64,000 bases of DNA from Anaerolineae bacterium. GTDB lineage: Bacteria; Chloroflexota; Anaerolineae; Aggregatilineales; Phototrophicaceae. Each line of letters begins with the position of its first letter. The first letter of the stretch is position 1. Of this stretch, positions 24,258-27,524 are shown piece by piece. Location: NCBI GenBank assembly GCA_022823945.1, contig JAJEBK010000022.1, forward strand, positions 1 to 64,000. Reading direction: 5' to 3'. The position numbers and the translations under genes are program-made. Under the pieces are notes generated by a model, which worked only from the letters and a program-made list of their open reading frames with translations, had not been told where the DNA came from and did not search any database.

Positions 24258-24986
24258 CTAGTCGCAGATCAATGTGCCCACGCTGGTATCGCCCTGCAGC
24301 GCCTTGACCAGGTCGGCGGGATTCCAGAAGTTCAGCACGATGATGGGCATATTGTTTTCCTGACAGAGTGTGAAAGCGGTGGTGTCCATCACCCGCAGTT
24401 GCTGATCCAGCACATCCTGGTGGCGAAGACGCTGGTATCGTTGCGCATCAGGCTCTTGCATGGGATCGGCAGCATAGACACCATCGACCTTGGTGGCTTT
24501 GACGATGACATCGGCGTGGATTTCGCTGGCGCGCAATGCCGCTGCCGAGTCGGTAGTGAAGTAGGGGCTGCCGATGCCGCCGCTGAGGATGACCACACGC
24601 CCTTTTTCCAGGTGGCGGATGGCGCGCAGGCGGATGTAGGGCTCGGCCACGCTGTTCATTTGAACGGCAGTTTGCACGCGCGTGACGATGCCCAGCCGCT
24701 CAATGGCATCTTGCAGTGCCAGACCGTTCATTACCGTGGCGATCATGCCCATGTGGTCGGCGGTGCTGCGGTCCATGCCCAGACGGGCAGCTGGCTCGCC
24801 GCGCCACAGATTGCCGCCGCCGATCACGATCGCGACTTGCATACCCAGCTCATAGACTTCGTGGACGCGCTGGGCGATATAGGCGGCTTTATCGGGATCA
24901 ATGCCAGCGCCACCATTGCCAGCCAGCGCCTCGCCGCTCAGCTTCAGCAATATGCGCCGATAGGTCAGGGCATCGCGTTGTATCAT
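24258..24986 (-). CDS. pyrH: UMP kinase
   Basis: This 242-residue hexameric kinase phosphorylates UMP to UDP for RNA and nucleotide-sugar synthesis. It has the amino-acid-kinase fold, with RILLKLSGEALAG at the start, VIGGGNLWRG (phosphate loop) and ADHMGMIATVMNGLALQDA, which is diagnostic for PyrH. Its position downstream of rpsB-tsf is the usual bacterial order, but here a MerB-like gene and a palindromic repeat lie between. frr does not follow; a glycosyltransferase gene does. Confidence 0.96.
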   Translation of the reverse strand: MIQRDALTYRRILLKLSGEALAGNGGAGIDPDKAAYIAQRVHEVYELGMQVAIVIGGGNLWRGEPAARLGMDRSTADHMGMIATVMNGLALQDAIERLGIVTRVQTAVQMNSVAEPYIRLRAIRHLEKGRVVILSGGIGSPYFTTDSAAALRASEIHADVIVKATKVDGVYAADPMQEPDAQRYQRLRHQDVLDQQLRVMDTTAFTLCQENNMPIIVLNFWNPADLVKALQGDTSVGTLICD

Positions 24987-25025
24987 GCTCGCTCCTTGCT
25001 TTGTGTTGACCAGCGCCGTTCAGCT

Positions 25026-25183
25026 AGGAGTGGTGATTTTAGTGGAGTTGGCAACCCGCCCCCATCCCCCAGCCCCTTGCCCCCAAAATGAGGGAAGGGG
25101 AGCGCTACTACGTTTTGAAGTCCCTCCCTCTTTATGGGGGAGGCATTTAGGGTGGGGGCATATCCACGATTCTCACCACTCCT
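25026..25183. repeat. Palindromic repeat, family B copy, with 11-bp outer inverted repeat
   Basis: A family B element (core 25055-25158) is bracketed by a perfect inverted pair, AGGAGTGGTGA (25026-25036) and TCACCACTCCT (25173-25183). It fills most of the gap between the MerB-like gene and pyrH. A worn family A-like piece follows at about 25200-25240. Confidence 0.7.
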
Positions 25184-25248
25184 GTTCAGTTGCATTCAGG
25201 CAATCTGTGCTCCTCTCAGGATCCGTCCGGGCGACCGAGGGGTTGCAA

Positions 25249-25932
25249 TCAGGCCGGCGTATCGCGCCAGAATTCTCCTGTCAGGTCGAGCTGGCGGAAG
25301 ATGGCTTGTGCCTCGTCAGCTGTCCGACCGCGAAAAGCCGGCGATATGCGATCGACATACCAGCGCTTTGCCAATTCCCAAACGCGCTGCAAGCTCAAGA
25401 CGGCACCCCGTTCCAGGCATTTGCGCTGCAGCCAGCTTTCAATCTCCTCGTCCGACCGGAAGAGCAAGATGCCCGCTCAGGTTTCTACAATATCATCATA
25501 CCAATGGCGAAATGGCTGGGCGAAATGCACAAGCCCGTCTTCTGCCCCGACCAGTTGCCCGCCGCGTATCGCAAAGCGGATTGGCTGGCGCGTCAAGGGA
25601 TGCAGCGCTTCAATCTGCGCGTCATCGCCGAGCATGGCCGGTATGCCCAGCGAATCCCAGGCACAGTTGGCATAGAGCCAGCGACCATCGATGCGCGCGC
25701 GATAATCGGTCTGCACAGCCGAAAGCGGATGCGCCATCAGCACAGCGCCGTCATCAGCCAGCACCAGGGCGTGCGCGTCATGCAGTCGTTGCAAAGCTGC
25801 CTGTGCTTGCGCAGGGCGCAGGTCAAATCGCGCGGCGATGTCACGAGTATCGGGCGCGCAGCCTGTTGCGACCAGGCACGCATAGATAACCTGGCGGATC
25901 TTCCAATCGCTATCGGTAGGTGGCAAGCTCAT
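25249..25932 (-). CDS. MerB-like (alkylmercury lyase family) protein with in-frame TGA, predicted selenoprotein
   Basis: Read through one TGA (25479-25477), this gene gives 227 residues. The N-terminal part is a winged-helix-like domain (about 10-65). The catalytic core shows RIDGRWLYANCAWDSLGIPA (77-99), which aligns with IDDRRLYAWCALDTL of MerB. Cys90 and Asp93 match MerB Cys96 and Asp99. The TGA is codon 152 in IVET-U-AGILLFRS and falls on MerB Cys159; the spacing from the first Cys is 62 versus 63. After the TGA the frame stays open for 75 codons with family-like sequence (LSLQRVWELAKRWY). A SECIS-like hairpin follows the TGA. Known MerB cleaves carbon-mercury bonds; the substrate here is unproven. 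It lies 47 bases after tsf, without a strong ribosome site. The alternatives are a pseudogene or a sequence error. Confidence 0.82.
25442..25470 (-). promoter_or_regulatory. SECIS-like hairpin downstream of the in-frame TGA
   Basis: On the minus strand, starting 6 nt after the TGA, the RNA can fold as AUCUU-(G)-CUC-U-UCC / GGUC loop / GGA-C-GAG-GAGAU. This is an 11-bp interrupted stem with a four-base GGUC apical loop at 25457-25454. The loop starts 19 nt after the UGA. The E. coli fdhF SECIS also has a GGUC loop, about 18 nt after its UGA. Position and loop therefore fit the bacterial SelB-binding element. Confidence 0.75.
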
Positions 25933-25979
25933 ACGCCAGCCAGCTGCGCTATTCGCTCGACTATCGGCTGGCTGCGCGC

Positions 25980-26585
25980 TTAGCTGTCGCTGCCGATGGC
26001 CAAGCGCTGGAAGCGGCCGATGTTGATGGTTTCGCCCACCTCGGCGACAGTCTCTTGCAGAACCTGACTGACTGTCTTGTCATCGTCCTTGATAAAGTCT
26101 TGCTCGAGCAAGACGATATCTTCGTACCATTTGTTCATTCTGCCAGCGACGATCTTGTCGGCGATATGCGGTGGTTTGCCTTCGCCCAGCGCGCGCTCCA
26201 GCTGGATGCCTTTTTCAGCCGCGACCACATCGGCGGGCACATCCTCGCGCCGTACATAGCGAGGGTTCATGTTGGCGATATGCATGGCGATATCTTTGGC
26301 GAAGGATCGAAATGGCGCGGTGGCGGCTACGAAATCTGTCTCGCAATTGACCTCCACGATGACAGCCAGCCGATTGTCAAAGTGCACATAATTGCCGATG
26401 ACACCTTCGTTGGCGCTGCGTCCCTTGCCCTGCAGCTTGATGCCGTCTTTCAGCGCTTTTTCGCGCAAGAATTCGGCCGCCGCGTCAATATCGCCGTCGT
26501 GCATGACCAGCGCATTCTTGCAATCCAGTGGTCCGGCACCGGTTTTGTCTCGCAGTTGCTTGACTTGCTTTGCCGTTACTGCCAT
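25980..26585 (-). CDS. tsf: Elongation factor Ts
   Basis: This 201-residue protein recycles EF-Tu by exchanging GDP for GTP. It has the N-terminal UBA-like domain (VKQLRDKTGAGPLDCKNAL) and the core motif VEVNCETDFVAATAPF with the conserved TDFV that contacts EF-Tu. The length is that of the short EF-Ts form found in Thermus and several other phyla, with a reduced C-terminal region. It lies 66 bases after rpsB. Confidence 0.96.
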   Translation of the reverse strand: MAVTAKQVKQLRDKTGAGPLDCKNALVMHDGDIDAAAEFLREKALKDGIKLQGKGRSANEGVIGNYVHFDNRLAVIVEVNCETDFVAATAPFRSFAKDIAMHIANMNPRYVRREDVPADVVAAEKGIQLERALGEGKPPHIADKIVAGRMNKWYEDIVLLEQDFIKDDDKTVSQVLQETVAEVGETINIGRFQRLAIGSDS

Positions 26586-26651: not shown

Positions 26652-27524
26652 TCATGCCTGGGTGTTTGGTTCTTCTCTGGCTGCGTCTTCGCTCGTTGCG
26701 TCTTCGCCATCGTCAAAGAGGCTGGAATCCCGCAGCTTCGCCAGGGTCGATTCGCCAAGCAACTCTTCGTCAGAGAGGTCGTCATCATAAACATCGGTGA
26801 CTTGTTGTGCTTCGTCGTCTTCGATACCGGCCGATTGGCGCAGGTTGTGCCCTTCCATCACAGCATCAGCCAACGCGCCGATCAACAGACGGATGGAACG
26901 CATGGCATCATCGTTGGCGGGCAGAATATGGTCGACCAGGTCGGGATTGGCGTTGGTATCGACGAGAGCCAGCACGGGGATCTTGAGAATGTTGGCTTCT
27001 TTGACTGCCGTATGCTCGCGTTCGGCATCGACGACGATCAGCAATTCGGGTATGCTCTTCATCTCGCGGATGCCACCCAGGCGCAACTGCAGCTTGGCTA
27101 TTTTGCGCTGCAAGACCAAGCCTTCTTTCTTGGTCAGCCGGTCAAATTCGCCGGCATCGCGCCGCTTTTCCAACTGCTTCAAGGTGTCAATGCGGCTGCG
27201 GATGGTTTTCCAGTTGGTCAATGTGCCGCCCAGCCAGCGATAATTGATATATGGCATGCCACAACGAGTGGCTTCGCGCTGGACGATCTCCTGCGCCTGA
27301 CGTTTGGTGCCGACGAAAAGCACATTGCCACCGCCCGCAACTAAATCGGCGATCATGTCATGAAAGCTGTGGAGATTTCGGAGCGTAATCTGCAAGTCGA
27401 TGATGTGAATCCCGTTGCGATGCGTGAAGATGAACTCGTCCATCTTGGGATTCCACTTGTTGGTGCGATGCCCGAAGTGCACGCCGGTTTCGAGCAAGGT
27501 TCGCATTCGTACTGCTGAAGGCAT
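26652..27524 (-). CDS. rpsB: 30S ribosomal protein S2
   Basis: This 290-residue protein has the full S2 fold: LLETGVHFGHRTNKWNPKM, VLFVGTKRQAQEIVQ, YINYRWLGGTLTNWKTI and LALVDTNANPDLVDHILPANDDA. The last 60 residues are a strongly acidic extension not needed for the fold. The ATG has a CAGGAG ribosome site, and a good promoter and a leader hairpin lie upstream. It is the first gene of the rpsB-tsf-MerB-like-pyrH unit. Confidence 0.97.
   Translation of the reverse strand: MPSAVRMRTLLETGVHFGHRTNKWNPKMDEFIFTHRNGIHIIDLQITLRNLHSFHDMIADLVAGGGNVLFVGTKRQAQEIVQREATRCGMPYINYRWLGGTLTNWKTIRSRIDTLKQLEKRRDAGEFDRLTKKEGLVLQRKIAKLQLRLGGIREMKSIPELLIVVDAEREHTAVKEANILKIPVLALVDTNANPDLVDHILPANDDAMRSIRLLIGALADAVMEGHNLRQSAGIEDDEAQQVTDVYDDDLSDEELLGESTLAKLRDSSLFDDGEDATSEDAAREEPNTQA

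Follow-up and report, generated by a model that had tools for sequence, protein, structure and literature searches.

A MerB-family gene of an Anaerolineae bacterium with a predicted selenocysteine at the catalytic Cys159 position

The window analysed here, a stretch of 64,000 nucleotides from an Anaerolineae bacterium of the phylum Chloroflexota (assembly GCA_022823945.1, contig JAJEBK010000022.1, positions 1 to 64,000), harbors a gene of the organomercurial lyase (MerB) family PF03243 that is interrupted by one in-frame UGA. This codon is most likely read as selenocysteine (Sec) at the position of the catalytic Cys159 of MerB. The predicted enzyme would use a triad of Cys90, Sec152, and Asp93 to cleave bonds of carbon with mercury or, alternatively, with related metals. 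Since the UGA at this column and a hairpin 3' of it are common to dozens of relatives, the bacterium likely builds a Sec enzyme. The Sec assignment, proposed in an earlier note made from the letters of this DNA, is supported by the Sec machinery of the source genome, the clade-wide UGA, the hairpin, purifying selection, and Cys in relatives. The gene and its key codons are:

25249..25932, minus strand: MerB-family (PF03243) gene, 227 residues via one UGA, followed by the terminal TGA at 25249-25251
25477..25479, minus strand: in-frame UGA for the predicted Sec152, aligned with MerB Cys159 and found at the same column in relatives
25663..25665, minus strand: TGT codon of Cys90, the counterpart of MerB Cys96
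25654..25656, minus strand: GAT codon of Asp93, the counterpart of MerB Asp99

The frame runs from the ATG at 25932 to the TGA at 25251-25249 (coding span without the stop, 25252-25932). Termination at the UGA would yield a product of 151 amino acids, and 75 codons are open between the UGA and the stop. The read-through protein matches PF03243 with 97.1 bits over profile positions 1-125 of 126 (gathering cut-off 27 bits), and its two halves score 60.8 and 20.7 bits separately. A profile alignment to solved MerB places Cys90 on C96, Asp93 on D99, and the UGA-encoded residue 152 on C159, with a spacing of 62 residues from Cys90 to the UGA versus 63 in MerB. The counterparts of Cys96 and Asp99 are thus kept, and position 159 carries the UGA, a predicted Sec, instead of Cys. 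These results bear out what the earlier note had described, namely the interruption of a MerB-family frame by the TGA at 25479-25477, the 75 open codons beyond it, MerB similarity on both of its flanks, and the exact correspondence of all three catalytic positions. The predicted structure model of the read-through protein has the MerB fold, with MerB2 and MerB entries as top structural matches. A second PF03243 match was not found in the source genome at an E-value of 0.001.

The in-frame UGA is not due to chance, as the same codon recurs among the PF03243 matches of phylum and class genomes. In a phylum sample of 400 genomes, 59 have a PF03243 match; the 72 matches comprise 18 with one TGA, 7 with two (25 with TGA), 1 with TAG, 1 with TAA, and 45 without any in-frame stop. 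In a class sample of 396 genomes, 50 have a match, and the 52 matches comprise 37 with one TGA, 6 with two, and 9 with none, TAA and TAG being absent. Both searches read through every stop; the column surveys of named kin and of the collapsed gene set split frames at TAA/TAG, and such stops are invisible there. All 11 genus members, the source genome included, have one TGA in the class search, and as the list of unmatched genomes runs by kinship from the family level, no unmatched genus member is hidden. The named kin are Anaerolineae/Chloroflexi metagenome-assembled genomes (MAGs) and one Thermomicrobiales MAG, with the UGA in 13/13 loci. After collapse by sequence (named and unnamed loci L078=L132, L079=L133, and L088=L134), 59 genes have one UGA, 13 have two, and 30 have none. 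Among 120 listed of 239 database homologues, 117 (own protein included) are 132-171 amino acids long, and E/D-T directly before the UGA ends all 10 short homologues whose sequences were examined; the remaining three (226, 226, and 258 amino acids) carry Cys at the UGA column. Cys is also found there in the relatives P0015, P0038, P0042, and L121, so that homologues show both TGA and Cys at this position.

Beyond the UGA, the gene still encodes a protein sequence that is maintained by purifying selection. The ratio of nonsynonymous to synonymous substitution rates (dN/dS) is 0.13-0.52 before the UGA in 14 pairs of relatives and 0.15-0.49 after it in 13 of them. This bears on the possibility of a pseudogene or sequencing error, in which case the UGA would be a genuine stop or a Cys codon read wrongly, ahead of a decaying second half. 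The existence of decayed kin could be cited in its favor: a frameshifted fragment on a Rubrobacter plasmid and a 5'-truncated copy (L074) with the loop AGTC. Such an explanation is hardly credible, given the identical codon and column in many separately assembled genomes, values well below 1 after the UGA in 13/14 pairs, the conserved hairpin, and the near absence of in-frame stops other than TGA.

The source genome (3.5 Mb, 94% complete) encodes all four components for Sec insertion that the earlier note had suggested looking for. The tRNA-Sec (selC) scores 65.6 bits and is called SeC with anticodon tca by ARAGORN; SelB reaches 336 bits (cut-off 242), SelA 546 bits (cut-off 268), and SelD, with its own in-frame UGA within ASCAGUASK, 392 bits. 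In the phylum sample, SelA occurs in 21/21 genomes with a TGA-containing MerB homologue and, by hand comparison, in 31/38 other genomes with a MerB match, one of which (G080) has a 5'-truncated copy with the UGA. UGA also ends rpsB and a nearby hisC-like open reading frame (ORF; hisC label by eye); the genetic code is therefore not reassigned, and TGA is an ordinary stop elsewhere, as previously noted. It is accordingly very unlikely that the UGA is reassigned or read as another residue (Trp, near-cognate suppression), or that the halves are made as separate proteins, although a TTG-started ORF spans the second half of the gene. Next to these normal stops, near non-Sec relatives have Cys at the column, not Trp, the Sec machinery is complete, and the hairpin lies in the position of a selenocysteine insertion sequence (SECIS).

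In bacterial SECIS elements, e.g. that of Escherichia coli fdhF, a hairpin within the reading frame follows immediately 3' of the UGA and has a small loop that bears G/U. The clade described here shares this layout, and differs by a specific GGUC loop and a TCTTCC-type stem that its members have in common. In the window, the element is:

25447..25464, minus strand: SECIS-like hairpin, in which CTCTTCC pairs with GGACGAG (6/7 pairs) around a GGTC loop; starts 15 nucleotides from the UGA's first base

The geometry (7-bp stem, 4-nucleotide loop, start 15 nucleotides from the first base of the C159-column UGA) was tested in 70 genes, L090 and L064 being dropped from the count. The stem pairs at 7/7 positions in 38 genes, 6/7 in 28, and 5/7 in 4. 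Of the loops, 63 are GGTC, 6 GTGA, and 1 AGTC. Synonymous resampling with fixed proteins and own codon usage (1000 runs) yields GGTC in a mean of 14/70 genes (maximum 25), and 370 +/- 6 stem pairs versus 454/490 observed. For the 67 distinct sequences, 436/469 pair positions are paired; the maximum of 1000 shuffles is 420, and sliding the partner strand leaves 226-299 pairs. Compensatory stem variants include TTCTTCT/AGAAGAA, CTCTTTC/GAAAGAG, and TTCTTCA/TGAAGAA, and the GGTC loop is kept even where Trp-Ser (TGG TCA) takes the place of Arg-Ser (CGG TCG). At other sites of these genes, the same geometry gives at least 6/7 pairs at 227 of 12,189 positions. The Cys relative L121 lacks the hairpin (loop AAAG, 4/7 pairs), and two farther Cys homologues pair at 4/7 and 6/7 positions, neither with GGTC. 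Fold energy over 37 genes ranges from z -2.9 to +1.3, and an Rfam scan of 25000-26200 gave two weak matches, neither reaching the gathering score. The hairpin is set apart by position, loop, and covariation, not by fold energy alone. Conservation, dN/dS, the hairpin, normal UGA stops, and the Cys column together contradict a pseudogene, a reassigned UGA, and a split gene.

The family also contains double-Sec MerB homologues with UGA at both catalytic cysteine columns (Cys96 and Cys159), in two sequence types that are unjoined in a tree of the 'quick' type (98 rows, unrooted, support by the Shimodaira-Hasegawa-like approximate likelihood ratio test (SH-aLRT) only). One type comprises L069, L070, L068 (G137), L071 (G356), L127, and L128, the other L067, L072, L073, L129, L130, and L131. 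L090 (two rows), L064, L045, L046, L040, and L074 were left out of the tree, and L118 was entered as single-Sec. One group of 67 rows (SH-aLRT 96) consists of 57 single-Sec, 6 double-Sec, and 4 Cys rows; the other 6 double-Sec rows fall outside it, and the double-Sec label takes two changes on the tree. The Cys trio P0015/P0038/P0042 is nested in the Sec clade next to L086 (SH-aLRT 95), which indicates a Sec/Cys exchange; as the tree is unrooted, its direction is not given. L121, a Cys form with Cys replacing the catalytic Asp99 (NCAWCSLG; G627 C3), has a long branch and an unsure placement. The GGUC hairpin is absent at the first UGA of double-Sec genes. Two other hairpins are found there, each in 6 sequences; the first (alifold -8.3 kcal/mol) has CGTGC-like loops and the second (-12.1 kcal/mol) a CGTGC loop, which is suggestive only.

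Further unusual homologues were encountered. The single-Sec gene L118 (G553 C102) has an additional in-frame UGA, which falls on a Trp-Cys column and corresponds to TGC in its relative L119; it represents either a second Sec or a recent mutation. L064 (G066 C14), a far MerB homologue, shows UGA followed by Cys (GLUCKIYYF), apparently at the C159-C160 position, with a GCCTCT/AGAGGC hairpin after the UGA (by eye). On a Rubrobacter radiotolerans plasmid, a gene annotated merB (L090, NZ_CP007515.1 103195-103661, 90 amino acids) appears to be what frameshifts have left of a Sec-clade gene, with the UGA at the same column; if so, the clade would extend to another phylum.

The surroundings of the gene bear on its function:

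25980..26585, minus strand: tsf (elongation factor Ts), immediate upstream neighbour, recurring across the genus and its closest kin
26652..27524, minus strand: rpsB (ribosomal protein S2), Pfam-scanned neighbour
24258..24986, minus strand: pyrH (UMP kinase), directly downstream; Pfam AA_kinase, name inferred

The order rpsB-tsf-merB-pyrH is found in the genus and nearest kin, and neighbours vary elsewhere; in the loci examined, the neighbour clusters of tsf and pyrH hold 15 and 14 ORFs, respectively. Among the near neighbours of other members, 10 of 53 (7 loci) were scanned with Pfam and none showed a link to mercury, nine belonging to families without such a link and one to no family. In L109, a DUF1858 protein (1032-1319) is encoded just upstream of the Sec-MerB gene, and L116 has a related ORF; the consulted part of PMC13188914 counts DUF1858, with the motif CxxU, among the selenoprotein families.

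A serious contender, although short of probable, is that the MerB-fold selenoprotein has a natural job other than organomercury cleavage, i.e. cleavage of other organometals or organometalloids (which overlaps with the function proposed above), metal sequestration, or Cys90/Sec152 redox chemistry. The translation-related and pyrH neighbours, the scanned families of other members, and the naming of SaoL as an 'organometallic' rather than a mercury lyase by NCBIfam speak for it. The kept Cys/Asp/Cys triad of MerB, with Sec at one of the two cysteine positions, and the MerB2 and MerB entries heading the structural matches speak against it. Several observations weigh against a Sec-dependent organomercurial lyase. 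Scores fall far short of the NCBIfam equivalog-level cut-offs for MerB (NF009710, 62.7 of 193 bits; NF033555, 50.6 of 200 bits), which also favors another job. The same holds for MerA, which exceeds its cut-off in 0/11 genus genomes and in 1/19 genomes tested (G356); as the gene also lies outside any mer operon, mercury is perhaps not the physiological substrate. SelA co-occurrence alone is weak evidence because SelA is common in the phylum (322/400). The L105-L110 pair has a dN/dS of 0.95 after the UGA, at a dS of only 0.13. As to the hairpin, the loop differs from GGTC in 7/70 genes (6 GTGA, 1 AGTC), the own element has one mismatch among seven stem pairs, the fold energy of the 54 nucleotides after the own UGA is not unusual (z -0.71), and the farther Cys homologue L135 also pairs 6/7, without GGTC.

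Organomercurial lyase activity is a prediction. Given the context, including the lack of MerA over the cut-off in the genus, organometal cleavage is the best reading, most likely with organomercury as the presumed substrate. It is also favored by chemistry, since selones as lyase mimics split Hg-C bonds faster than their sulfur analogues according to the consulted section of a review (PMC11639659). In the proposed mechanism, the GGUC hairpin described above would recruit SelB with Sec-tRNA for insertion of Sec152. Cys90 and the Sec152 selenolate would ligate the organometal, Asp93 would protonate the carbon, and the metal would remain bound by the S/Se pair before its removal by small thiols or selenide.

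If Sec is confirmed, selenium would be placed at a mercury-binding residue of a methylmercury-breaking enzyme family, and its gain in Hg-C cleavage would be testable via Sec-to-Cys swaps and the natural Cys relatives. In the double-Sec homologues, nature would provide metal sites formed by two selenolates. Tentatively, and with considerable doubt, a Chloroflexota branch of Sec-dependent organometal lyases (selenolate at Cys159; both thiols in two lineages), without MerA over the cut-off, may remove the methyl group from methylmercury, both in sediments and in animal hosts, with inert mercury selenide as a possible end product. Such a sink would have been overlooked because annotation cuts the genes at the UGA and surveys seek two cysteines. 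As far as its consulted text goes, a survey of methylmercury degraders describes MerB by its conserved Cys96 and Cys159 and uses the two as the basis of its screen (PMC9948709); surveys of this kind and UGA-terminated annotation would likely miss Sec-MerB genes.

MerB-type selenoproteins have been listed before, contrary to the earlier note, which was aware of none in this family: among the predicted cases given in reviews are SaoL and a protein named 'organic mercuric lyase MerB2'. The latter is a table entry in the part seen of a 2020 review (PMC7435645), without sequence or organism, and may or may not be the same clade. SaoL (NF040728), a MerB-like organometallic lyase of the SAO operon, appears as a predicted selenoprotein in the consulted parts of PMC13188914 and PMC9312934; the former gives its motif as CU and six selenoprotein genes for the operon. 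In the searched literature, mostly outside subscription sources, so that a prior mention is possible, neither a Chloroflexota clade with Sec at Cys159 nor a double-Sec MerB was found described; no mention of MerB or lyase was found in PMC2398784 and PMC12013277, nor of MerB in PMC5029168. Like SaoL, as far as these sources describe it, the protein studied here is a MerB homologue with a predicted Sec; against the SaoL model, it scores 44.2 bits (cut-off 140), and 42.9 bits were obtained for the first double-Sec row. Judged by the best E-values (6e-14 and 3.3e-15), the remaining rows of both scanned alignments, which predate the further double-Sec genes of the class search, are far below the cut-off, and a SaoL match over the cut-off occurs in 0/400 phylum genomes. 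Pfam scans of four neighbours in the window (rpsB, tsf, pyrH, and a glycosyltransferase) and of ten neighbours of other members revealed no recognisable SAO gene, the Sao models themselves not being run. MerB2 (5c17) and MerB (3f0o, 3f2f, 1s6l; PF03243) share about 20% identity with the protein, which differs from them by the predicted Sec at 159, scores below equivalog-level cut-offs, and the lack of a mer operon.
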